In this document: positions 1 to 29,909 of the stretch, in pieces
Position numbering within the stretch: the stretch's first letter is position 1
Layout of the letters: each line of letters opens with the position of its first letter
NCBI GenBank assembly: GCA_016190065.1
Contig: JACPRI010000290.1
Coordinates: 1-32,977 of the forward strand
From: Verrucomicrobiota bacterium
GTDB lineage: Bacteria > Verrucomicrobiota > Verrucomicrobiia > Limisphaerales > SIBE01
DNA: 32,977 nt
Direction: 5' to 3'
The notes under the pieces: model-generated
The model's input: the letters and a program-made list of their open reading frames with translations, nothing else
What the model was told of the DNA's origin: nothing
Database searches by the model: none
Position numbers and translations under genes: made by a program

Positions 1-150
1 GAGTTGAGGGTCCTCAGTGATCGGGAGTCAGTAATCAGTGTTCTGTCATCAGTAGTCAGTCACGCATCACGTTTTAACGCTTTAACCCTTTTAACTCATT
101 TAACGACGACGAAGTCACTCATGCCGCAGCGCCTCCATCGGATCGACTCG
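1..150. repeat. Left arm of a long inverted repeat (partner about 9797-9946)
   Basis: Positions 1-120 are the reverse complement of 9827-9946; similarity continues with a few mismatches into the permease 3' end (ATCGGATCGACT/TGGGTCGC). Confidence 0.93.
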
Positions 151-2511
151 GGTCGCGCGCCGCGCTGGAATCCAACAGGCCAGTGCAGCTACTGCGGCGA
201 AGAACAGCGTGATCAACGCGAGCGTAAGCGGATCGCGGGCGCTCGTTTGAAACATCCGCGCTTCAATCAAGCGGCCAGCGGCGAGCGCACCGAGCAAACC
301 GAGCACCAAACCGCATCCCACCAATCCGGTGCCCTGACCCAGCACAAGCCGCATTACATCGCGCGGCACGGCTCCCAGCGCCATGCGAATGCCGATCTCG
401 GTGGTGCGCTGGCAGACGCTATAGGCAATGACCCCGTAGAGGCCGACCGCCGCGATCGTGAGCGCCAGCAGCGAAAAAACCGTCAGCAGGTGCATCTCGA
501 ATCGTTGCTGGCTCACACGGCTGTCGATGATTTCGCGGAGTGGGCGCCCTCCTCCGACCGCGAGAGCGGGATCGACCGCGTGGATCTGGGCCCGGAGCGA
601 CGGATAAGTGACGCCGAATTCCGGGCGGGTGCGCACAATCAGGCTCAACGTCGCCCCGGCTCCCTGTATTTGCGCAAATGCGCGGTAGCCTTGCGCGGTG
701 ATGGGTTCGGCGGGACTCGCCTGCGTGGCGTCGGCGACCACGCCGATGATTTCCCACCATTGGGAGGAGATTCCCACCTGGATTCGGCGGCCGACTGGAT
801 TTTCCCCCGGAAAATGTTGCAGGGCGAACGTTTCATTGATCAAGACGACGCGAGGCGCGTGCGCATCGTCGTGCGTGTTGAACAACCGTCCGCGAAGGAG
901 TCGAATGCCCGTCGCCGGAAAATAACCGGGCGTCACTTGCGACATGCGCGTCACCGGCCACGCGGCGCGGTCCGGCTCGTGCCGACCCTCGACGTTGAAA
1001 TCCGTGGTCCCGCGCGCCGCCGCTTCGAAGGTCAGGTATGTGGTCACACCTGCTGCCTCCACGCCCGGCAGTGCCTCGATCCGCGAGAGCACGGCATCGA
1101 CAAAGGCCAACCGCTGTTCAGGCGTGGGGTATTTTGCAGGCGACAGCACCAAAGAAAACTGCACGGCATCCCCGGGCACCAGACCGGGGTCAACGTGAGC
1201 AAGCCGGATGAAACTCCGAAGAAGCAGCCCGGCTCCGGCCAGCAATACCACAGCGCACGCCACTTCGAACACGACCAGCATGCGGCGCAGCCGGCCACCC
1301 GCCCGGCTCTCGCTGTTACCGCGGGTTCCCTGTTTGAGCGCCTCATTGACGTTCACGCGCGAGCCCAGCCAGGCGGGCGCCAGCCCGAAGACGAGCACGC
1401 CGAGCCCACTCAGCAATAGGGCGAACGCCAGGACTCGGCCATCCATTCCAATGGCGGCGTTGTCCATGCCGCCGATCAGGGGATACAGACGGAGCGACTC
1501 CCGCGCTCCATTGGCCATCAACATACCGGCCCCGCCGCCGAGCAACGCGAGCAACATGCTTTCCGTGAGCAATTGCCGCAAAAGACGGGGGCGGCCCGCG
1601 CCGAGCGCAGCCCGGACTGACATTTCGCGCTGCCGGCTGGCCGCGCGTACAAGGAGGAGGCTGGCGACATTCGCGCAGGCGATCAGGAGCACGCAGCCGA
1701 CGGCGCCCAAAAGCGTCCACAGCATGGCGCGCCAATGACGTGTGAGATACCGATGCTCCGGCGCGACGGTGTGGATGAAGCCCTGGTTTGCTTCGGGATA
1801 TTGTTCGGCCAGCCGGGCCGTGAGCACGTCGAGTTCGGCCTGCGCCTGCGCGAGCGTGACACCATGCTTGAGTAATCCCCGGACAGCGACCGACCCCGCT
1901 CGGCGGGCTGGTGGCACGCTGGAGTCGTATGGCACAAACGCGTCGGCGTCGTTGCGGCTCCGATAAAAGTCTTCGGGCGCGACGCCGATCACGCTCCAAG
2001 ATTCCCCGTCGAGCAGCACGCTGCGACCCAGAATGTCTTTCGCTCCACCGAACACACGCTGCCAGAAGCCATGCCCAAGGATGATAACCCGGTGATTCCC
2101 TGCGACGTGTTCGTCAGCGGAAAAATTCCGGCCCAAGGCAAACTTCGTCCGGTAGAAGGGGAAGAAGCTGTTGGAGACAGCCTTTGCCTTTACGTTGAGC
2201 GGCTCCCCTACGCCGGTGAGCGTGAGCGGACGATTGAAATTGGCAACAAGAAGTTCGAACGACTTCAATTCGGTCTGAAAGTCTAACCAGTCGCCGGCTG
2301 AAACGGCCGGCTGGACCGAACGCGACACGTGAGCGCGCCAGATCATCACGCGCCGTTCGGGATCGGCATTGTAAGTGGTCAAGAGAACCGAATTGATGAG
2401 CGAGAACATGGTGACGCACGCACCAATGCCCAGCGCCAGCGTGACGACGACGAGCGCGGTGAAGCCAGGGTTTTTCAGCAATTGGCGGAAGGCGAATTTG
2501 AGGTCGTTCAT
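115..2511 (-). CDS. ADOP-type (acidobacterial duplicated orphan permease) ABC transporter permease, MacB/FtsX-like
   Basis: Starts MNDLKFAFRQLLKNPGFTALVVVTLALGIGA; ends RRATRVDPMEALRHE; FtsX-like core (LLIACANVASLLLVRAASRQREMSVRAALGA). ORF opens at 2571 but the family start is the internal ATG at 2511. Confidence 0.93.
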   Translation of the reverse strand: MNDLKFAFRQLLKNPGFTALVVVTLALGIGACVTMFSLINSVLLTTYNADPERRVMIWRAHVSRSVQPAVSAGDWLDFQTELKSFELLVANFNRPLTLTGVGEPLNVKAKAVSNSFFPFYRTKFALGRNFSADEHVAGNHRVIILGHGFWQRVFGGAKDILGRSVLLDGESWSVIGVAPEDFYRSRNDADAFVPYDSSVPPARRAGSVAVRGLLKHGVTLAQAQAELDVLTARLAEQYPEANQGFIHTVAPEHRYLTRHWRAMLWTLLGAVGCVLLIACANVASLLLVRAASRQREMSVRAALGAGRPRLLRQLLTESMLLALLGGGAGMLMANGARESLRLYPLIGGMDNAAIGMDGRVLAFALLLSGLGVLVFGLAPAWLGSRVNVNEALKQGTRGNSESRAGGRLRRMLVVFEVACAVVLLAGAGLLLRSFIRLAHVDPGLVPGDAVQFSLVLSPAKYPTPEQRLAFVDAVLSRIEALPGVEAAGVTTYLTFEAAARGTTDFNVEGRHEPDRAAWPVTRMSQVTPGYFPATGIRLLRGRLFNTHDDAHAPRVVLINETFALQHFPGENPVGRRIQVGISSQWWEIIGVVADATQASPAEPITAQGYRAFAQIQGAGATLSLIVRTRPEFGVTYPSLRAQIHAVDPALAVGGGRPLREIIDSRVSQQRFEMHLLTVFSLLALTIAAVGLYGVIAYSVCQRTTEIGIRMALGAVPRDVMRLVLGQGTGLVGCGLVLGLLGALAAGRLIEARMFQTSARDPLTLALITLFFAAVAALACWIPARRATRVDPMEALRHE

Positions 2512-7426: not shown

Positions 7427-9832
7427 ATGAACGACCTCAAATTCGCCTTCCGCCAACTGCTGAAGCACCCCGGTTTCACCGCCGTGGCCGTGCTCACGCT
7501 CGCGCTGGGTATCGCTTTGAATGCCGCGATGTTCAGCGTGGTGAAGGCGTTCCTGTTCCCGCCGCTGCCGTACGCGAACGCGGAGCAACTGCTCATTCTG
7601 ATCAGCAACCGGAAAGGCCACGATGAAATGGGCGCTTCGCTGCCGGATTTCGATGACTGGAAACAGCAAGACCGCTTGTGCCAACCGATCGCTTCGTTCA
7701 CACCATGCCGTTTGACGGTGACGGGCGGAGATCAGCCGGTGGAGGTTTCCGGCTATTACGTGTCCGCCGATGCTTTCCGTCTGACGGGTATTCAGCCGAA
7801 ACTGGGCCGAGCGTTTGCGCCGGAAGAAGATCGCGCCGGCGCCGAACGTGTCGTCATTCTCAGCCACGAACTCTGGCAGAATCGTTTCGGCGGCCGCGAG
7901 GATTTGCCTGGCCAAACGGTGAAACTCAGCGGGGACCAGTACACCGTCGTGGGCGTGATGCCGCCTGGACTCACCGGCTTCTTGGCCGCTCAAATGTATT
8001 TGCCGCTGGGTTCTTTGCCGCGCGATTCTTTCCACAACCGGAGCGAACGCAGCACGCCGGTCGTGGCTCGGCCCAAGCCCGGCGTCCGTCTGGCCGAAGT
8101 GCAGGCTCAGATGGACACGATCACGGCTCGTCTGGCCCGGCTTTACCCGGAAACGAACGAAGGCGTGAAGGTTCGGGTGCTCCCGTTGCGCCGCTGGGTA
8201 AGATCGGATTACGCGTCGCCGGCTCTCGTTCTCCTCGGCGCGGTGCTCTTCGTCATGTTGATTGCGTGCTCCAATGTCGCCAACTTGCTGCTGGCGCGCG
8301 CCGCTTCGCGGCAGAAGGAAATCGGGATTCGTGTCGCGCTCGGAGCCAGCCGCTTTCGAGTGGTTCGGCAATTGTTGACGGAAAGTCTCCTGCTGGCCTC
8401 GCTCGGCGGTGGGTTGGGCATCTGGCTTGCACTTTGGGCCGTGAATGGGATCAACGCGCTTTATCCCACCGGAACGCGATTCGCCGTGGACAGTCAAGTT
8501 CTCGGCTTCGCAGCGCTGGCCACACTGCTGACGGGCCTTCTGGTCGGCTTGACCCCAAGTCTCCAGGTATCGAAACCGGCCTTGAACGAAACGTTGAAGG
8601 AAGGCGCCCAAAAATCGGCGAGTGTTCGAGGACGCCGATTCCACGACTTTCTCGTGGCGGGCGAGATCGCGCTGGCGCTGATTCTTTCCTGCGGCGCTGG
8701 ATTGCTGATCCAAAGTTTTCTTCGCTATGAGGCCATCGACAAAGGCTACGATCCGAAAAACGTTTTGACCGTGGTTCTCAATGTTGCGCCGTCAAAATAC
8801 CCGCAGCCGTTCCAGGTGCAGGAGTTCAGCCGTAATGTGCTCACGGAGATGGGCCGATTGCCCGGGGTAGAATTCGCTGCGGCCGCCGCGCCGATGAACA
8901 TACCGCGGGAGCGGGACGGATGGGGTTTTTCCGTTCCTGGCTGGGAGCCTGGCTCAAGCGAATCGCGGCCCATCGTCAGCGTTCATGCCGTAAGCGCCGA
9001 CTATTTCCGCGCGCTAAAAATTCCGATGGTGCGCGGACGCTCCTTCACCGTGCAAGATACTGGCGCCGCCAGCGCGGTCGTGATCAACGAACGCATGGCG
9101 CAGAGGATCTGGCCAGATGCCGAACCCATCGGCCAATCCGTCAAGCTGGGCGGAAGGAACTCGCCGGGGCCGTGGCTGACGGTCGTGGGTGTGACCCAAA
9201 CGGCGCGCGGCCACACCTGGTACGATACGGCCTCGGATGTTTGGGACATCTCTGTGCCGTTGGACGCGCCAGTCCAGGCGGGGACGAGCTTCGCGTGGCT
9301 GAATTTCTACGCGCGCACCGCGTCCGACGCAGCCGGATTTGCCGAGCCGATCCGAAAGGCCATCGCGTCGGTGGACCCCGATCAACCGATTCTCTCCATA
9401 AGAACGATGGAGGAATGGCTCCACCAGGCAGGCTTCAGCCGTCGCGCCTTCGCGATGGCGATGAGCCTCTTTGGCGCGCTATCGCTGTTGCTCGCGGCCG
9501 TGGGCATCTACTCGTTGATCAGCTATGCCGTGAGCCAGCGGACCCGCGAAATCGGAATCCGCATGGCGTTGGGAGCGCAACAAAGCAATGTGCTGGGAAT
9601 GGTCCTGAAGAAGGGAATGGTTCTGGCGCTGATTGGCAGCACGATCGGTTTGATTGGAACGTTCGCGCTCACAAACGTCATTGCGAGCCAGTTGTATGGC
9701 ATCCAACCCACAGATCCGCTCACGTTCGCCGGCGTCACCGGACTCTTACTCGGAACCACTCTGCTGGCTTGTTACCTCCCGGCGCGAAGAGCGACCCAAG
9801 TCGATCCGATGGAGGCGCTGCGGCAGGAGTGA
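7427..9832 (+). CDS. ADOP-type ABC transporter permease, MacB/FtsX-like
   Basis: MNDLKFAFRQLLKHPGFTAVAVLTLALGIALNAAMFSVV...RRATQVDPMEALRQE. Confidence 0.94.
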   Translation: MNDLKFAFRQLLKHPGFTAVAVLTLALGIALNAAMFSVVKAFLFPPLPYANAEQLLILISNRKGHDEMGASLPDFDDWKQQDRLCQPIASFTPCRLTVTGGDQPVEVSGYYVSADAFRLTGIQPKLGRAFAPEEDRAGAERVVILSHELWQNRFGGREDLPGQTVKLSGDQYTVVGVMPPGLTGFLAAQMYLPLGSLPRDSFHNRSERSTPVVARPKPGVRLAEVQAQMDTITARLARLYPETNEGVKVRVLPLRRWVRSDYASPALVLLGAVLFVMLIACSNVANLLLARAASRQKEIGIRVALGASRFRVVRQLLTESLLLASLGGGLGIWLALWAVNGINALYPTGTRFAVDSQVLGFAALATLLTGLLVGLTPSLQVSKPALNETLKEGAQKSASVRGRRFHDFLVAGEIALALILSCGAGLLIQSFLRYEAIDKGYDPKNVLTVVLNVAPSKYPQPFQVQEFSRNVLTEMGRLPGVEFAAAAAPMNIPRERDGWGFSVPGWEPGSSESRPIVSVHAVSADYFRALKIPMVRGRSFTVQDTGAASAVVINERMAQRIWPDAEPIGQSVKLGGRNSPGPWLTVVGVTQTARGHTWYDTASDVWDISVPLDAPVQAGTSFAWLNFYARTASDAAGFAEPIRKAIASVDPDQPILSIRTMEEWLHQAGFSRRAFAMAMSLFGALSLLLAAVGIYSLISYAVSQRTREIGIRMALGAQQSNVLGMVLKKGMVLALIGSTIGLIGTFALTNVIASQLYGIQPTDPLTFAGVTGLLLGTTLLACYLPARRATQVDPMEALRQE

Positions 9833-9946
9833 CTTCGTCGTCGTTAAATGAGTTAAAAGGGTTAAAGCGTTAAAACGTGATGCGTGACTGACTACTGATG
9901 ACAGAACACTGATTACTGACTCCCGATCACTGAGGACCCTCAACTC
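9797..9946. repeat. Right arm of the long inverted repeat (partner 1-150)
   Basis: Includes the end of the permease gene and about 114 bp downstream; antisense translations of both arms begin MRVLSDRESVISVLSSVVSHASRFNALTLLTHLTTTKSL. Confidence 0.93.
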
Positions 9947-10820: not shown

Positions 10821-10913
10821 GAACCCACCCCTGCGCTCCTCCCAGGAAGGGAACTGAGCTAAGCACGCGCCAACCGATTCCCCTCCTGGGAGGGGCAAGG
10901 GGTGGGTTAGTTC
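10821..10913. repeat. Dispersed palindromic repeat (AACCCACCCCT...CCTCCCAGG family), copy 1
   Basis: AACCCACCCCTGCGCTCCTCCCAGGAAGGGAA (10822-10853) is nearly the reverse complement of TTCCCCTCCTGGGAGGGGCAAGGGGTGGGTT (10878-10908). Confidence 0.9.
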
Positions 10914-11949: not shown

Positions 11950-11998
11950 CCCGACCGGCGAGGCGCCGGTCGGGACACGCGAGGCGCGTGTGCTCCCC
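11950..11998. repeat. Dispersed hairpin repeat (GACCGGCG-AGG-CGCCGGTC family), copy A
   Basis: CCCGACCGGCG-AGG-CGCCGGTCGGG (11950-11974) followed by ACACGCG-AGG-CGCGTGT (11975-11991) and GCTCCCC; reverse complement matches 29761-29809. Confidence 0.88.
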
Positions 11999-13224: not shown

Positions 13225-15339
13225 TTACGGTGAGCCGCCGCCGTTCAAAGTCTCCAGATAATCCGTAAAGCCGCGTTGAGTGGCCTCTGAAACGGTCTTA
13301 AGCCGACTCGACAATCCCGGACTCCGCAAATCGACACCCGCCTTGTGGATCAGGTTTGCCGCTTGCGCCGCTATGGTTTGGTCGTACGACGCGAGCGCAG
13401 GCAGCAATTTGCCAGGATCCGTGCCGTGCTGGTCGATCAGCTTCCGGGCGTAGGCTCTCGCCGACGTGAACTTGCCATCCCCATCCGCATCGATCCAGAT
13501 CGGGTTAGTCGCTCCGATGATCCGCGAGTTCCAAACGCGCGAACTGGGCTGATACGGGCGGGCAATGGCCCAGTAAGGGGCGCGGACTCCCGGACCGGAC
13601 GCAATCGCCACCAGATGGACGTCGTGCTTGGGCCGGGGAATGAGCCAGGTGATCCTGGCTTTGATTCCGTCCGCTTGCCGGCCCGGTCGCCTGGGCAGGC
13701 GTTCCGGGGCAGCAACCTTTTGTTCCCGAATTTTCACGCCGTTGGCGTATAGTTCGACTCGGTCCGCCGTGACCCAGGACGGGCCGAGCACGGTCGTTTC
13801 CACACGAATGCGACGCCCCAAACCGGTCGCGAGATCTCCGACGGCGAACTTTCGATCGACGGCCAACTGCGCGAGCAATCCCAGGTTGACCAGGACTCGG
13901 CCTTTCAGAAAACTCTCACAAGCCGCGTTAATCTCGATGCGGCTCGGATCGTGATCATCGCAAGCCACGTAGCTTCGTCCTTGGCCGACAATGTAACGGC
14001 TCACGTCGTGGCCGTCGCTCGAGCCGACGGCTGTGACACGGTAGCCGTAGTTCAAAAGCGCCATCCAATCGTGGAAACCGAGCATCAGATCGGACTGCAA
14101 CGCGGATGAGTTGCAGACCTCGATGGCGTCGAAGCCAAACTCGAAGCCGCGCTTGTTCTCGCCCGTCACGGCATTGAAATTCGTCGAAGCGAACGGCTGG
14201 AAATTGCTGTGGATGTTGCGCGGATGGTTCAGGATGACGACGCGGACGCCGGGCGTCGAGCGGATCGATTGCAACAATCGCGGCCAGTCCGCGATCTTAG
14301 GGTCGGGGACCTTGCTTCCAGCCGTGATCGGGAAATGGTTGAAGTGCCCCTTCGCCGTCGTGGTCTCGCAGCCGATGACCGGCGTGAAGAATTTTTGGAC
14401 GCCCATTCGTCTGGACGGCTCGGAAAAGTCCGCGAGATACTCGTGGTCTGTGGCAATCGGCAATTCGATCCCTTCGCCGGCCAAGGTGAGGACGCGTTCA
14501 TCCGTCGTCGCGTCACCATGCCGGCTGTAGGTGAAGGTGTGGACGTGCGTGTCGCTGCTGACCAACCCCGGAGTGGACACTTCGCGCCGAAGCTTCAGCT
14601 CGACACGGCGAGTCTCTCCGGCCCGAACGGAAACATTCGTCGTCGCCAGGCTGTATTCAAACCCGCGGGTGGCGTGGATTGCAATACGACCCGGCCGCGT
14701 GCCGACTCGCGCCCTGCCGTCCGGTGAGTAAACCACGCCGGGCCGTACCGCGAGTTTCTGTTCTTCGTTTGCAAAGAGCGGCACTAGCTCGCCGGCCTCA
14801 TTGACGATCGTGAGGCGGCACGGAAGCTCCTTCCGGCCTACGTCTTCCGTGACCTGGATTTCCAACCAGGCCTGCTCGATGGCCTCCCGGCGCGGCCGGG
14901 GATCCAGCTCGAACTTGCCCACGATGATGTCGTCATTCGCTTTGGGCGGCAGGATCGCCAGAACGTTTTCGCCGTCGCGCAAAGCTCCTGCGGGGATGGG
15001 CAAAGCGAAGATGAGTGGCGCTTCCATCAAGAACAAGCTGCCGATTTTTTTGCCGTTGAGTTCGAGGGCCCAGTCCAGCTTCACGTCGTCTTGGCGCAAG
15101 AAAAGAGTCGCTTCGCGTTCGTTGAGCTGGGCCGAGAAACGAAGCTGCAATGCGCGGCTGTCTGGAGTTTTGCCCTCGAAGTAATCCCACTCCGGCGCAC
15201 CGGCGGTTCCCAGATGGTAGGTTCTGCCATCAGCAATCCGGGCGCCTTCAGCGGCGTGCAAAACGAGGCCAAACAAGCAGGAGAAAAGGACGGTGAGAAG
15301 CAATGCCTCGGTCTTGGCTGCCGTCGCGCAGAGTTTCAA
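13225..15339 (-). CDS. CehA/McbA-like PHP-domain metallohydrolase, exported; start inferred as TTG
   Basis: GLVSSDTHVHTFTYSRHGD...LTLAGEGIELPIATDHEY..., NHPRN, GSSDGHD. The annotated ATG at 15699 reads through repeat DNA; TTG at 15339 gives MKLCATAAKTEALLLTVLFSCLFGLVLHA, a plausible signal peptide. Confidence 0.75.
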   Translation of the reverse strand: MKLCATAAKTEALLLTVLFSCLFGLVLHAAEGARIADGRTYHLGTAGAPEWDYFEGKTPDSRALQLRFSAQLNEREATLFLRQDDVKLDWALELNGKKIGSLFLMEAPLIFALPIPAGALRDGENVLAILPPKANDDIIVGKFELDPRPRREAIEQAWLEIQVTEDVGRKELPCRLTIVNEAGELVPLFANEEQKLAVRPGVVYSPDGRARVGTRPGRIAIHATRGFEYSLATTNVSVRAGETRRVELKLRREVSTPGLVSSDTHVHTFTYSRHGDATTDERVLTLAGEGIELPIATDHEYLADFSEPSRRMGVQKFFTPVIGCETTTAKGHFNHFPITAGSKVPDPKIADWPRLLQSIRSTPGVRVVILNHPRNIHSNFQPFASTNFNAVTGENKRGFEFGFDAIEVCNSSALQSDLMLGFHDWMALLNYGYRVTAVGSSDGHDVSRYIVGQGRSYVACDDHDPSRIEINAACESFLKGRVLVNLGLLAQLAVDRKFAVGDLATGLGRRIRVETTVLGPSWVTADRVELYANGVKIREQKVAAPERLPRRPGRQADGIKARITWLIPRPKHDVHLVAIASGPGVRAPYWAIARPYQPSSRVWNSRIIGATNPIWIDADGDGKFTSARAYARKLIDQHGTDPGKLLPALASYDQTIAAQAANLIHKAGVDLRSPGLSSRLKTVSEATQRGFTDYLETLNGGGSP

Positions 15340-15541
15340 TCGGCTGTATCGCCGACTTGCAGTCGGGATGTCACACAGGTCGGCATGCGGCGGATTGGAA
15401 ATCCGCCATCCAGCGCAGCGCGGCGAAGCCGCAACCGAAACGGAGCGCGGCTGTGGTCGAAGACCCAGCCGCAGCGCGGTGGAACTGCCAAGGTGCTGCG
15501 GCTGGTGCTTCGCACACAGCCGCGCTCCAAAGAATCGCCGC
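15326..15541 (-). repeat. Composite modular palindrome element, copy I
   Basis: Contains GCGCAGAGTT..CTGTATCGC linker, GGCGGATT-GGA-AATCCGCC hairpin (15389-15407) and a long hairpin with arms GGAGCGCGGCTGTG (15442-15455)/CACAGCCGCGCTCC (15515-15528). Confidence 0.85.
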
Positions 15542-15619
15542 AGCTTGCAACGATTGGGCGAGATACGGATAGAGTCCAACCCAGCGTTCTGATTGGAGAA
15601 AGCAGTTTGGCCACTCTTT

Positions 15620-15670
15620 ACAGAAGCTAACGAAGAGAACCAAGCCTTGGTTACCTTCGTTACCTTCTGT
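15620..15670. repeat. Hairpin-forming short-word repeat (AACGAAGGTAACCAAGG family)
   Basis: ACAGAAGCTAACGAAGAGAACCAA (15620-15643) pairs with TTGGTTACCTTCGTTACCTTCTGT (15647-15670), 21/24 complementary, loop GCC. Confidence 0.85.
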
Positions 15671-15806
15671 GAGGATTTAGGAAACTTTGCGACCAACATG
15701 TTCGTTCAGTATTCGGCTTGGCAGGCTGGCGCGGATTTGGGGCAGGCAAGATGCCGGCCTGCGCTTGGATTCGTTTTCATTGAGTCAAAGCGAAGTTAAG
15801 CGAACG

Positions 15807-16607
15807 TCAAGGACCACCAAGGACTTTGGCGGGCGAGTGATTCCCAACACCACCCGCTTGCGACGGCCGAAAACGTTCGCTGAGATACTCCGCCAGCGAA
15901 CGGATTTGTTCCTCGTCGAGCGGCCCCTCCGCGGCCTTTGAAAAAGCGGGCATGAGCGTGCCGGGTTTTCCGTTGCGCACCCAGGTCTCCCAATAGCTCC
16001 GATCCGTCGGTGTCTTCACCGCCGCCAAATCGGGAACCATTTCCGCGCGGTGCTTCGCTTCGTGGCAGATGGAGCACGCTGCCTTGTAGAGTTCGGCTCC
16101 TTTCTTGCCGACGGCGGGCTGAACGTGGCATTTCGCGCAATCCCCTTGGAACACCGCTTGTCGATCCGCTTGCGCGACCAGGATGCCAAACATCCGCTGC
16201 CGTTCCTCCGGGGTTGGATCGGGAATGTACACGTTGATCGCGACCTCGAACACGCCGCTCGACGTGACCACGCGTGTCATCTTGCTGAGAAGCCCCTGTT
16301 TGCCGCGCAAATCCACCTGGATCTCCATTTTGTCGGCGCCGCCCGGCGGCAAAATCCAGGGCGAGGCGGGCCTCTTCACCAAGGTGCAACCGCAAGTCGT
16401 GCTCACGCCATTGATTTCGACGTCTTTCCAGTGGGACGTGTTGGTAAGGTGGAATACGAAAACCGTGTTCGTCTGGCCGCGTTTCGCGTCGTAAAACTTG
16501 GAGGTCGCGTCCCAAACCAGCGCTTGCGAAAATCCTCGCTGATCCGCCAGGCCAGCAAGTGTGGCGGTCACGCACCCGAAACTCAGTTGCCACCAAAGTT
16601 TCCTCAT
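15807..16607 (-). CDS. Exported DUF1573-like + cytochrome c fusion protein
   Basis: Signal MRKLWWQLSFGCVTATLAGLA; FHLTNTSHWKDVEINGVSTTCGCTLVK (DUF1573-like); CAKCH and CSICH heme motifs with GTLMPAFS. Confidence 0.85.
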   Translation of the reverse strand: MRKLWWQLSFGCVTATLAGLADQRGFSQALVWDATSKFYDAKRGQTNTVFVFHLTNTSHWKDVEINGVSTTCGCTLVKRPASPWILPPGGADKMEIQVDLRGKQGLLSKMTRVVTSSGVFEVAINVYIPDPTPEERQRMFGILVAQADRQAVFQGDCAKCHVQPAVGKKGAELYKAACSICHEAKHRAEMVPDLAAVKTPTDRSYWETWVRNGKPGTLMPAFSKAAEGPLDEEQIRSLAEYLSERFRPSQAGGVGNHSPAKVLGGP

Positions 16608-16846
16608 TTCAAATCGAGAGAGCCTATACGTCAGGCCTCGCCGGTTGACGAGGAAGAAAATTCGATTCGCCCGTGGAAGTGGGTGGCGCAAATCAGTTTC
16701 AGAACAACTTCGCCGACTTACTTACTTAACTTATTAATGATGGACAAAGTCTGAAAGAAGGAGAACCTGCAACGAGCGGTCGAAAAGGTAGCCGCGGGCC
16801 TAAATGCCGCGCTCCGGATGAATCGGCGATGAGTGTCGTTGTAGTG

Positions 16847-18043
16847 TTAATCGAGTTTCCCCCTGAGCAACTTGACCCGTTCGGAAATTGACGCAGGCAG
16901 ATCTGGAAACCGCGCGATGTGTTCAAGGATTTGGGCCGCGCGGTCGTGGTTTCCGGCCAGCAAAGCCAGTTCAACCACGCCCAGGTGGCGCTCGAAATTT
17001 CCTGGTTCCACGCGACGCAGAATCTCGGCGCATCGCAGAGCGTCTCCGCACTCGCCCCGTCGCCGGCGCAGAATCATAAGCGCGTGCAAAGCGCGAACAT
17101 TGTGCGGGTAGAGATCGAGCGCCTTCTTCAGAAGGATCTCGTTCGGCACGGCCTGTGACGGGGAGCCGGCGGCGGCTTGATCAACAAGCCGATTGGACTC
17201 GGTGATATTCTCGTCCAATTCAACTTGTCCATCGCGCATGCTCCGGACCGAAAAACCGTCTTCCCGATAGAACCGTTCGTCATCGGATTGGAGAAGATGC
17301 CGAGGCCAGCGTTCCTCAAAGCCCCGCGTATCCGCCACCGGAATGGTTCCGGGCGCGCTTTGGGACAAAGTCACCGATCCGTGGTGCAGCACGGTGCTGA
17401 GCGGGTTGAAAACGATGCGCAGGCCCTGCTGGCGAACCTTCAGACACAGATCGACGTCCTCCAAACCGTAGGGCGCGAACATTCCTGCGGCAAAAAACGG
17501 GCCGCGCTTCACCAGCAGACAAGCCCCGAGCACCGCCTGGAAATCGCGCTCCTTGGTGACGCCGTGAAATCCGGCTTCCTCGCGATGATAAATGGGATAA
17601 AACGCATGCAGCGAGGCGTTGTACACATATCCGGCGTGATTGATCGTGTTGGACTGCGGATACACCAGTTTGGGCCCGACCACAGCCACATCCGGCGAAG
17701 CCGCGGCGATGAGCAAGTGCGCGAGCCAGTTTTGGAGAGGGATCGTGTCATTGTTCAAAAACAACAAGAGATCGCCGCGCGCGGCCTCGGCGCCCAGGTT
17801 GCAGGCCGTGGAGAAACCGGCATTGCGGCCGACGGAGATGACTCGCAACGAGATGTTCTGCTCTGTCGCTCGCAGGAGGAACTCCGCGGTGCCGTCCGTC
17901 GAACCGTTGTCCACCACAATCACCTCCACCCTCACATGAGGTGGCAGTGTCCCAAACACCGCGTTCAAACAGGCCTCCGTGAACGGGAGCTGGTTGAAGA
18001 CCGGAATGATAATCGAACACGTCATAGAGGAATCATCTGGCAA
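16847..18043 (-). CDS. Family 2 glycosyltransferase
   Basis: CSIIIPVFNQLPFTEACLNAVF; VIVVDNGSTDGTAEFL; NAGFSTACNLGAEAARGDLLLFLNNDT. Confidence 0.93.
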   Translation of the reverse strand: MPDDSSMTCSIIIPVFNQLPFTEACLNAVFGTLPPHVRVEVIVVDNGSTDGTAEFLLRATEQNISLRVISVGRNAGFSTACNLGAEAARGDLLLFLNNDTIPLQNWLAHLLIAAASPDVAVVGPKLVYPQSNTINHAGYVYNASLHAFYPIYHREEAGFHGVTKERDFQAVLGACLLVKRGPFFAAGMFAPYGLEDVDLCLKVRQQGLRIVFNPLSTVLHHGSVTLSQSAPGTIPVADTRGFEERWPRHLLQSDDERFYREDGFSVRSMRDGQVELDENITESNRLVDQAAAGSPSQAVPNEILLKKALDLYPHNVRALHALMILRRRRGECGDALRCAEILRRVEPGNFERHLGVVELALLAGNHDRAAQILEHIARFPDLPASISERVKLLRGKLD

Positions 18044-18180
18044 AACGCTTGCCCCGCCATGGCACGCTGACTAGAGTCCTTCCATTCAACTTAAAGCGCG
18101 CCGGCGGCTGGAATCGCGTAAGTCCTGAAACATTAAATCCAATTGTCTGCCGAAGGCGCAGCTCATTCGAGGACCGAATC

Positions 18181-18399
18181 GTGCATCAGATCAAAATCTT
18201 CAAAACGCTCGAAACCGACGTCGGCCTGTTGGAGAAACAAGTGAACGCCTGGCTGGCCGAATCCAAAGTTCGGGTCATTAATATGTTTGGCAACATCGCC
18301 CCGCAAAGTCCGCCGCCCGAGGAGAGCGCGCCCGCGATTTCAAAGAGCCCGCATCCCCCGTCGGATGTTTTCCTGGTGGTGCTCTACGAGCAACCTTGA
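18181..18399 (+). CDS. Small conserved-looking protein of unknown function (about 72 aa, GTG start)
   Basis: In-frame GTG at 18181; MHQIKIFKTLETDVGLLEKQVNAWLAESKVRVINMFGNIAPQS...SDVFLVVLYEQP has protein-like composition. Confidence 0.6.
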   Translation: MHQIKIFKTLETDVGLLEKQVNAWLAESKVRVINMFGNIAPQSPPPEESAPAISKSPHPPSDVFLVVLYEQP

Positions 18400-18491
18400 G
18401 GAGGCGATCCGTTGAACCCGCGGATCGACGCGGTCCTTTTTTCACAGGAGGCGACGGAGAGAACAGAGTTGTCATGGTTGGAATTCCTGGT

Positions 18492-20291
18492 TTAGTCCCA
18501 GCCGACGGCACGTCCTTTGTTCTGCTCTTGCAGCCACGCCATGAGCGGCCTGAAATACTCCACCATCGGGCGCGTTGACAGATCCTCGCCGGTCGCTTCC
18601 CGCAGAACCTGCCGCCAATCTTCCCTGCCGCCTTTCTCCATGATTTTGCGAAGAAAATCGCCCACGGCGTTGTGGTTCGCGTAATTGCAGGCTTGCGGCG
18701 GCTGCCGGAGAATCTTCCGCGCAATGTAGTCGTGGAACTGGAATTTCAACACCGTGGCCACGGCGTACGAATAATAGTAAGCCGGCGTGTCGTTGATGTG
18801 GGTTTTGGTCGCCGCGTCGCAGAATTCTTCGCCGCGATCCCACGGCGGTTCGACGCCCTGCAGTTCCCGGACATATTTCCACCACCGCGCATTCCACTCT
18901 TCCGGGCTGAGGTTGTGCGCGTAGATGTCCGCTTCCCAATGCGTCATCGTGCCTGAACTCCAGAAAATGAACGGCACGGAATTGGCCAGCGCGTCATTCA
19001 AAAGAAACGCCGTTTGATCGACCTTGTAATCGGCCGGCACGATGCCCACCGATTGCAAATACGGCGCCGCCCCCGACGCCAGCGAAATCAGCTCCCCCAT
19101 CCCTTCATGAAAGGCGGGATTCGCTCCGAGCCGCAGCAGCGGCGGGACTTCGGGCCGCGTGTAGCTCATAAAGTAGTAACCGTGCCCCAACTCATGATGC
19201 GTGGTCTCGAACCATTGCGTGTTGGGTTCCACACTCATAAGCGACCGAATGTCCTTGTCCAAGTCCAGGTGCCAGCAAGAAGCGTGGGTGTTTTTCTTTC
19301 GTGAATCGCCCGCCTTGACCGGATAAAGGTCGGACGCGCTCCAGAAGCTCGCGGGCAACGGCGAAAACCCCAGGCCGACATAGAACTGCTCGGCGGTCTT
19401 GACGATCCATTCCGGGGTCCGATCCTTAAAATACGGATCGAGGTTGGCGCCCTCGACGATGCCGACCCAATTCTGGCTCCACCGATTGTTGAGCCAGTGC
19501 GCGGGAATGCGCTTGGGCACGGGCTGGCCGTACATCTGCGCGAGCTTGTGTTTCACCCAGGTGTGCAGTTGCAGATAGAGCGGTTTCAGATCGCGCATGA
19601 AACTTTGCTGCAGGTTCACCATCTCCTCGGTGGTCATGCCGTAGCCGGCGACTTGCAGCGCGAAATAATCCCGATGGCCCAACTCCCGCGCCACGCCATT
19701 GCGCAGGTCGCGCAGCTTGATCAAGCCCGGCTTCAACGCCGGCCCCGATTGCTTGGAAGCTTCCCACACGGCCCGACGTTCCGTGAGGTTGGTCGAGGAT
19801 TGCAGGAGATTGTCGATTGCATTGGCTGTGATCGGCTTCCCGTTCAGACGAAAGGTGAACGAATTGAGGATCGAAGCTTGTTTGGTTTCGGCGGCGATCC
19901 GGGCGTTGACCAGTTCGGGATTGGTCATGGGCCCTTCCGCCGCGTTCAAGAGCGCGCGCTCCAACTGCCGAACCGTGATCGGGCGCAGCTCGCTTCGGTG
20001 TTCAAGCAGCATTTTGGCTTCGCGAATCACGGCCGGATTGCCATTGAACGCCGCCAGCGCTTTTCCGGCCGCTTCCGAAGCGGCGTCGTGCGCGGGTGTG
20101 ACGTCGGTGGCGGCAGCCCATTGCGCTTCGCTGTTGACGCGATAGAGAGCCTGATAACCTGCGTTCACGAGATTCAGGAATTGATCCGCGCGATCCTGGA
20201 GAGCCGAAGCCGCGTTCGCGGTCAGGGCGGTTGCGGAAAGCGCGAGGGACACCACACACGCAAGCACTCTGGAAGCTGACCGTGATTTCAT
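18492..20291 (-). CDS. M2 family (angiotensin-converting-enzyme-like) metallopeptidase, exported
   Basis: TTHHELGHGYYFMSYT (HEXXH), PAFHEGMGELISLAS, PFIFWSSGTMTHWEADIY; N-terminal signal. Confidence 0.9.
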   Translation of the reverse strand: MKSRSASRVLACVVSLALSATALTANAASALQDRADQFLNLVNAGYQALYRVNSEAQWAAATDVTPAHDAASEAAGKALAAFNGNPAVIREAKMLLEHRSELRPITVRQLERALLNAAEGPMTNPELVNARIAAETKQASILNSFTFRLNGKPITANAIDNLLQSSTNLTERRAVWEASKQSGPALKPGLIKLRDLRNGVARELGHRDYFALQVAGYGMTTEEMVNLQQSFMRDLKPLYLQLHTWVKHKLAQMYGQPVPKRIPAHWLNNRWSQNWVGIVEGANLDPYFKDRTPEWIVKTAEQFYVGLGFSPLPASFWSASDLYPVKAGDSRKKNTHASCWHLDLDKDIRSLMSVEPNTQWFETTHHELGHGYYFMSYTRPEVPPLLRLGANPAFHEGMGELISLASGAAPYLQSVGIVPADYKVDQTAFLLNDALANSVPFIFWSSGTMTHWEADIYAHNLSPEEWNARWWKYVRELQGVEPPWDRGEEFCDAATKTHINDTPAYYYSYAVATVLKFQFHDYIARKILRQPPQACNYANHNAVGDFLRKIMEKGGREDWRQVLREATGEDLSTRPMVEYFRPLMAWLQEQNKGRAVGWD

Positions 20292-20350
20292 GCGCCGGAA
20301 ACTATCGGCGCGGGATTTGGAAAACAATCGCAAAGGAGCCGAGGTGGCGC

Positions 20351-20509
20351 AGATTTGCAGTCTATCAGTATCCCTGCAAATCGTCTCGACCGGCGACGAT
20401 TCTTCGGAGCGCGGAATTCATTCCGCTTCCGCTCCCACAGCCGCCTGAACCAACCGGCGCGCTGCGGATTTCAAATCCGCGATACAGCAGAGTTCAACTC
20501 TGCGCTACG
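20351..20509 (+). repeat. Composite modular palindrome element, copy II
   Basis: GATTTGCAG/CTGCAAATC (20352-20360/20374-20382), CGGCGACGATTCTTCGGAGCGCGG, GCGGATTTCAAATCCGC (20464-20480), GATACA, GCAGAGTTCAACTCTGC (20487-20503), GCTACG. Confidence 0.88.
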
Positions 20510-27569: not shown

Positions 27570-27666
27570 GAACCGACCCACCCCTGCACCCCTCCCAGGA
27601 GGAGAACTTCCACCCGACGCGCGAAATGTAACTCCCCTCCTGGGAGGGGAAGGGGTGGGTTCATGG
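27566..27666. repeat. Dispersed palindromic repeat (CCCACCCCT...CCTCCCAGG family), copy 2
   Basis: CCATGAACCGACCCACCCCTGCACCCCTCCCAGGAGGAGAA pairs with CTCCCCTCCTGGGAGGGGAAGGGGTGGGTTCATGG. Confidence 0.9.
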
Positions 27667-29760: not shown

Positions 29761-29909
29761 GGGGAGCACACGCGCCCTCGCTTGTCTCGACCGGCGCCTC
29801 GCCGGTCGAATCACGGGCAGACCAGCCGCCGAAAGGTGACTTGTTCCGGCGCACGACGGTGGTTGGCGAGGGCGCCAACCACGGCAGACGAGGCGCGCGT
29901 GCGCTCCCC
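29761..29909. repeat. Dispersed hairpin repeat, copy B (near-palindromic, two inner hairpins)
   Basis: TCGACCGGCG-CCT-CGCCGGTCGA (29787-29809) and GTGGTTGGCG-AGGG-CGCCAACCAC (29859-29882), flanked by GGGGAGCACACGCGCC / GGCGCGCGTGCGCTCCCC-like ends. Confidence 0.88.

Follow-up and report, generated by a model that had tools for sequence, protein, structure and literature searches.

What kind of element places short, well-paired hairpins of differing sequence beside near-constant linkers, twice, on a short stretch of Verrucomicrobiota DNA? The question arises from two palindrome-rich segments, copies I and II, in the 32,977-nt stretch analysed here (the window). The original prediction took them for one modular element, built of swappable hairpins joined by fixed linkers, and held that it was not a standard REP or MITE. 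We find that both copies are decayed members of a high-copy mobile family of uncultured Verrucomicrobia. They are long-form elements, distinct from a common short form that is described first.

A repeat of two tagged hairpins in tandem

The proposed linkers do recur in the genome. GATACAGC by itself was rejected as a family marker, occurring 102 times in the genome against 90 for its reversed control, and GATTCTTYGGAGCGCGG is found exactly only twice. Many of the genome matches to GATACAGC separate two palindromes and are followed by AGAnT..AnTCTGCGCTACG. Read on the other strand, this context is CGTAGCGC-[hairpin]-N-GTATCGC-[hairpin]. The repeated unit, or half-element, is two tagged hairpins in tandem, GTAGCGC[stem]GC-N-GTATCGC[stem]GC, and linker GATACAGC is therefore the reverse complement of the second tag region. 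Stems are 7 bp, loops are 3 nt, and GTAG lies directly 5' of the palindrome. Searching the 5.56-Mb genome (67.8% complete, 472 contigs) with up to 3 mismatches yields 168 half-elements, and the reversed control yields 0. At each of the four tag positions the GTAG base is present in at least 80 of 84 half-elements.

The intact short form is a head-to-head dimer of these halves, which lie 20-60 bp apart. The spacer has a mode of 44 bp (19 of 41 dimers in this genome), and the unit thus measures about 135 bp. Distinct inverted dimers number 41 in this genome's loci and 98 elsewhere. Short-form stems vary by compensatory base-pair change, with no visible swapping of entire modules. Across 67 distinct half-elements, 98.8% of cells are in standard pairs, some of them G-U, and double-change cells number 103 versus 32±3.9 in shuffled data and a maximum of 19 with the partners slid; because the copies are related, these are not counts of independent events.

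The two ends of a dimer are distinguishable. Of 106 complete dimers, 105 (34/34 here, 71/72 from other genomes) have one inner stem that begins GCC..GGC and a second that begins GCA/GCG; copy II was left out of this count, its right linker and one inner hairpin being missing. None of the 34 complete dimers of this genome carries an identical inner stem twice, where random pairing predicts about 7. Outer stems are the same within a dimer in 7 cases versus 15 expected here and in 37 versus 35 elsewhere, thus differing beyond expectation in this genome only. A single polarised ancestor accounts for part of the end rule. Stem positions next to the marker pair vary freely, suggesting that the marker pair itself is constrained.

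Transposase genes between the hairpins in relatives

In a scan of Y1_Tnp loci, genomes G224 and G090 each have an ORF with elements on both sides. The encoded proteins match NCBIfam NF047646, REP-associated tyrosine transposase (RAYT), at 100.8 and 93.3 bits (cut-off 80). The RAYT at G090:C13 is 248 aa long. GTAG hairpins stand on both sides within 400 bp at 20 of 21 closest-clade RAYT loci, and the single unflanked locus starts 31 bp from a contig end. Flanks were called by a tag-plus-stem detector, an exact-pattern detector having missed variants; other Y1 loci, taken as background, gave 8 matches in 158 kb, or 6 when shuffled. Sister RAYT loci have GTAG hairpins on both sides in 8/20. The two-hairpin unit itself is present at RAYT loci L278, L235, L289, L293-L297 and others. 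The HUH and tyrosine region is kept, with both aligned histidines and the tyrosine in 21/21 closest-clade proteins, and from these residues the enzyme is predicted to be catalytically intact in relatives. Genomes that bear this RAYT have at least five copies of the repeat in 13 of 20 cases, versus 29 of 273 for those without (Fisher p = 7e-8, phylogeny ignored).

A search of this genome (67.8% complete, 472 contigs) gave no cognate RAYT at E ≤ 1e-20. G018 has no Y1 match although it carries 63 half-elements, possibly because the enzyme was lost and the repeats stayed, or because the assembly is incomplete. The strongest Y1_Tnp matches of the order (L199-L228) were rejected as cognate candidates, being without the element's motif. 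Sister RAYTs at L271 (G052:C165), L307 and L309 are flanked by two-hairpin GTAG repeats of their own, distinct in sequence, which suggests pairs of one enzyme and one repeat. In E. coli, TnpA-REP cleaves single-stranded REP hairpins in a GTAG-dependent manner (PMC8266576).

The verdict that this is not a standard REP finds no support, as GTAG hairpins, head-to-head dimers, high copy number and RAYT flanking in relatives are REP hallmarks. Since GTAG hairpins flank RAYT on both sides in relatives, the repeat belongs with REPINs or BIMEs of the GTAG kind and is not a new class. We regard it, with good confidence, as a REPIN-type miniature element that is, or once was, moved by RAYT, which would recognise its tags and hairpins, and whose long form carries cassettes. 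We infer that this RAYT, a single-strand transposase, is probably the mover.

The long form and the two copies in the window

Comparison with G152, a genome of the same genus, gives the long-form layout as GTAGCGC[hairpin]-ATCAGTATC-GCC-CGAAATCGTCGCAAGCCGCG-[cassette]-TTTTGGTTGCGGCTTCGCCGCGCTGCG-C/T-GTATCGC[inner hairpin]-spacer-right half. Allowing up to 3 mismatches, we find the long-form signature 119 times in G152, 11 times in this genome, and 10, 6 and 4 times in G052, G090 and G149. Two further genomes have 1-2 each, so that 7 of the order's 293 genomes contain the long form.

Both window copies were found where they had been predicted, with the true extents given in Table 1, and both fold far better than shuffled sequence (z = -6.4 and -4.4). 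The predicted order of parts needs correction in copy I, where the hairpin preceding GATACAGC is CCGACT..AGTCGG and the GCGGATT hairpin lies further upstream. Stems that differ yet pair were rightly recognised, and both the pairing and the covariation are real, but not every stem is perfect, because the outer stem CGATTGAAACTCTG of copy I is degraded. The extra long hairpin noted in copy I is real. It is the cassette of the long form and belongs to one of the families described below (GGAGCGCGGCTGTG..), and the short cassette hairpin of copy II may be a remnant. The intact outer hairpin and tag of copy II match the half-element pattern with 0 mismatches (C206:20479-20508:-).

Table 1. Parts of the two long-form copies, in window coordinates
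Feature	Position	Strand	Remark
Copy I, whole decayed long-form element	15322..15588	-	
Copy I left end remnant AACGCTGGGTTGGACTCTATCCGTATC	15562..15588	-	
Copy I left cassette linker, hairpin-forming, CCAATCGTTGCAAGCTGCGGCGATTCTTT	15529..15561	-	
Copy I cassette, long inverted repeat GGAGCGCGGCTGTG...CACAGCCGCGCTCC	15442..15528	-	41-nt arms 83% complementary
Copy I right cassette linker GTTTCGGTTGCGGCTTCGCCGCGCTGCGC	15414..15441	-	
Copy I purine-type inner hairpin GGCGGATTTCCAATCCGCC	15389..15407	-	
Copy I C-type inner hairpin CCCGACTGCAAGTCGGC with a decayed end pair	15351..15367	-	
Copy I GATACAGC, reversed second tag region	15343..15350	-	
Copy I outer hairpin and tag, degraded, CGATTGAAACTCTGCGCGACG	15322..15342	-	
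Copy II, whole decayed long-form element, GTGGCGCAG ... GCGCTAC	20344..20508	+	L359, 165 bp between end tags
Copy II left end: decayed tag, outer hairpin GTGGCGCAGATTTGCAGTCT, long-form signature ATCAGTATC	20344..20372	+	1 mismatch to GTAGCGCAGANTNNNANTCTATCAGTATC
Copy II cassette hairpin GGAGCGCGGAATTCATTCCGCTTCCGCTCC	20406..20435	+	sequence, fold
Copy II inner hairpin GCGGATTTCAAATCCGC, purine type	20464..20480	+	sequence, fold
Copy II GATACAGC, reverse complement of second tag region GC-T-GTATC	20481..20488	+	
Copy II outer hairpin GCAGAGTTCAACTCTGC, intact, with tag GCGCTAC (reversed GTAGCGC)	20487..20508	+	

The frame of the minus-strand gene at 13225-15699 enters the outer hairpin and tag of copy I (window 15300-15342). 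A TTG within this degraded hairpin could serve as the start codon and is followed by a signal-peptide-like stretch; the copy I element may therefore supply the 5' end of this gene.

Further repeats occur in the window. Two MacB/FtsX-type permease genes in opposite orientation (ORFs 115-2571, minus, and 7427-9832, plus) carry 183-nt inverted repeats, 94% identical, near their outer ends (window 1-183 and 9764-9946), and the pair looks like a duplicated or inverted segment. A 33-nt inverted pair with the hairpin CGACCGGCGAGGCGCCGGTCG (94%; window 11952-11984 and 29776-29808) is apparently another dispersed palindrome. The repeat pair ACCCACCCCTGCRCYCCTCCCAGGARGRGAACT ... TCCCCTCCTGGGAGGGG lies at window 10823-10901 and 27576-27655.

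Unrelated cassettes between conserved linkers

We parsed 41 cassette slots, which fall into 14 BLASTN groups; clustering by global identity above 0.62 merged nearly all of them (0.45 baseline), and BLASTN clustering was used instead. After setting aside L190 (a chance match), L333 (almost empty), L350 (partial) and L374 (possibly belonging to another cassette group), at least 10 unrelated cassette families occupy the one slot. Linkers from different families share 79.5% and 73.2% identity and their cassettes 46.9%, versus 46.1% for shuffled cassettes, so that the idea of swappable hairpins with fixed linkers holds for the long form. Cassettes are mostly inverted repeats with arms of about 20-40 nt, and in single-strand folds the cassette is a long hairpin within the element.

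These observations raise the possibility that the long form goes beyond an ordinary RAYT-moved REPIN and is a dedicated docking site, at which diverse palindromic repeats were repeatedly inserted or exchanged and then spread by RAYT. The number of unrelated families argues for it, as do slot boundaries that agree within a few bases (ATTTTY before, TTTGGTTGCGGC after) and the finding that relatives of several cassette families also occur without linkers elsewhere in the DNA examined. However, the same picture could come from a small number of chance insertions and later recombination among carriers. The left-flank variant (ACGATTTTT or CAAATT/CGGATT) tracks particular cassettes, and independent entries may thus be fewer than families. 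Some cassettes (CTCGTAATCG), moreover, have almost no inverted repeat. We therefore entertain the docking site as a tentative extension of the REPIN reading. It is likewise possible, if somewhat doubtful, that the long form is a RAYT-driven carrier that captures hairpins, its fixed slot taking up and spreading unrelated palindromic repeats. If true, its logic would be comparable to that of an integron, for non-coding hairpins. The one candidate for an empty slot, on this genome's own contig C263 (L333), has nearly lost its linkers and was rejected, as it could equally be a deletion.

Distribution, an empty site and other readings

Across the order, 86 of 293 genomes carry half-elements when up to 2 mismatches are allowed (control 0 in every genome), at 1 to 407 copies per carrier. 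Two same-genus genomes have 407 and 388 half-elements and one same-family genome has 194, the remaining same-family genomes having 0 to 4. In a scan of bacterial and archaeal genomes, all the named ones among the matches listed bear Verrucomicrobiota titles. The element is also carried by L188 (CAMAWP010000022.1), titled as an Akkermansia muciniphila MAG, which may be a mislabelled record or a misbinned contig.

At the copy II locus of the sister species (G152), both neighbour genes and part of the intergenic sequence are kept and the element is absent, with about 60 bp of unrelated sequence in its place. Because this sequence is unrelated, the empty site could reflect loss rather than a site never occupied, and no transposition intermediate is visible. 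None of the dimers examined has direct repeats of 5 bp or longer at its flanks, and the base preceding GTAG is C in 82% of ends in this genome. The empty site and the absent direct repeats fit RAYT-type insertion without target duplication.

A different reading takes the hairpins for structures that act in transcribed RNA, as terminators, mRNA stabilisers or attenuators, and are retained for host function, their mobility being old or irrelevant. The covariation is strong and RNA-like, with some G-U pairs, and elements are depleted from long ORFs (17/41 inside versus 0.74 expected by random placement, on a crude ORF measure). Both window copies also adjoin gene ends or starts. However, recognition as folded single-stranded DNA predicts equal covariation, and a host function sits poorly with copy numbers of 0 to 407 in one order and even inside one family, with a copy II site that is empty in the sister species, and with hairpins of the same kind flanking a transposase gene. 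The window has 0 Rfam matches at gathering score. We consider a host RNA role unlikely. An ordinary MITE of a cut-and-paste (DDE) transposon would likewise be short, non-autonomous and abundant with inverted ends, but given the missing direct repeats and a Y1/HUH transposase as the associated enzyme, it is most improbable.

For a REPIN-type element moved by RAYT, we propose the following route. The short form, GTAGCGC[outer hairpin]-GTATCGC[inner hairpin]-~44 bp spacer-inverted same, has two distinguishable ends with differing stems. A RAYT dimer would bind the GTAG tags and hairpins of both ends in the single-stranded state and cut the unit, which would re-insert between genes without target duplication. 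As tag and hairpin shape would carry recognition, stems would be free to drift while paired, and end identity would be marked by one inner base pair, C-G at one end and purine-pyrimidine at the other. In one lineage, the first hairpin is followed by ATCAGTATC and two linkers that together make up the base of a larger hairpin. The slot between these linkers holds other dispersed repeats, most of them hairpins, which would be copied along with their carrier.

Taken together, these results link a probable enzyme to an anonymous repeat that is abundant in a large order of uncultured bacteria. An end-identity pair kept amid stem drift bears on how RAYTs recognise and orient REPINs, and the cassette slot offers a natural explanation for the origin of composite palindromic repeats in bacteria.

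Comparison with known systems

GTAG-tagged REPs, among them those of Opitutus terrae (Verrucomicrobia), have been reported with alternative complementary stem residues, frequent head-to-head heterodimers and dimers 20-100 bp apart (Di Nocera et al. 2013, PMC3733652). The element shares with them GTAG beside a short-loop palindrome, complementary stem changes, head-to-head heterodimers and repeat-flanked RAYT genes, the Opitutus terrae repeats being compared by description rather than by consensus sequence. It differs in its tandem tagged hairpins (GTAG, then GTATC), the C-versus-purine end rule and the long form with cassettes. In the limited literature searched, PMC3733652 was the sole relevant paper on Verrucomicrobia/Pedosphaera repeats, and the tandem architecture, end rule and cassette slot were not found. 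As in REPINs (Bertels and Rainey 2011, PMC3116915), the unit is an inverted REP doublet with compensatory changes and a presumed RAYT substrate, but it has four hairpins instead of two, distinguishable ends and a cassette slot. The TnpA-REP REPtrons of E. coli and S. maltophilia (PMC8266576) likewise place an HUH/tyrosine RAYT gene between GTAG hairpins. The predicted closest-clade protein here differs from theirs in extra N-terminal sequence ahead of the family domain.

The BOX elements of Streptococcus pneumoniae are modular palindromic intergenic repeats with a variable middle, in which the number of one module varies. Here, by contrast, one slot holds unrelated modules, and the comparison is one of layout. 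The kind of element is already known, and what is added is a repeat of two hairpins in tandem, ends that can be told apart and, in one lineage, a slot for cassettes.
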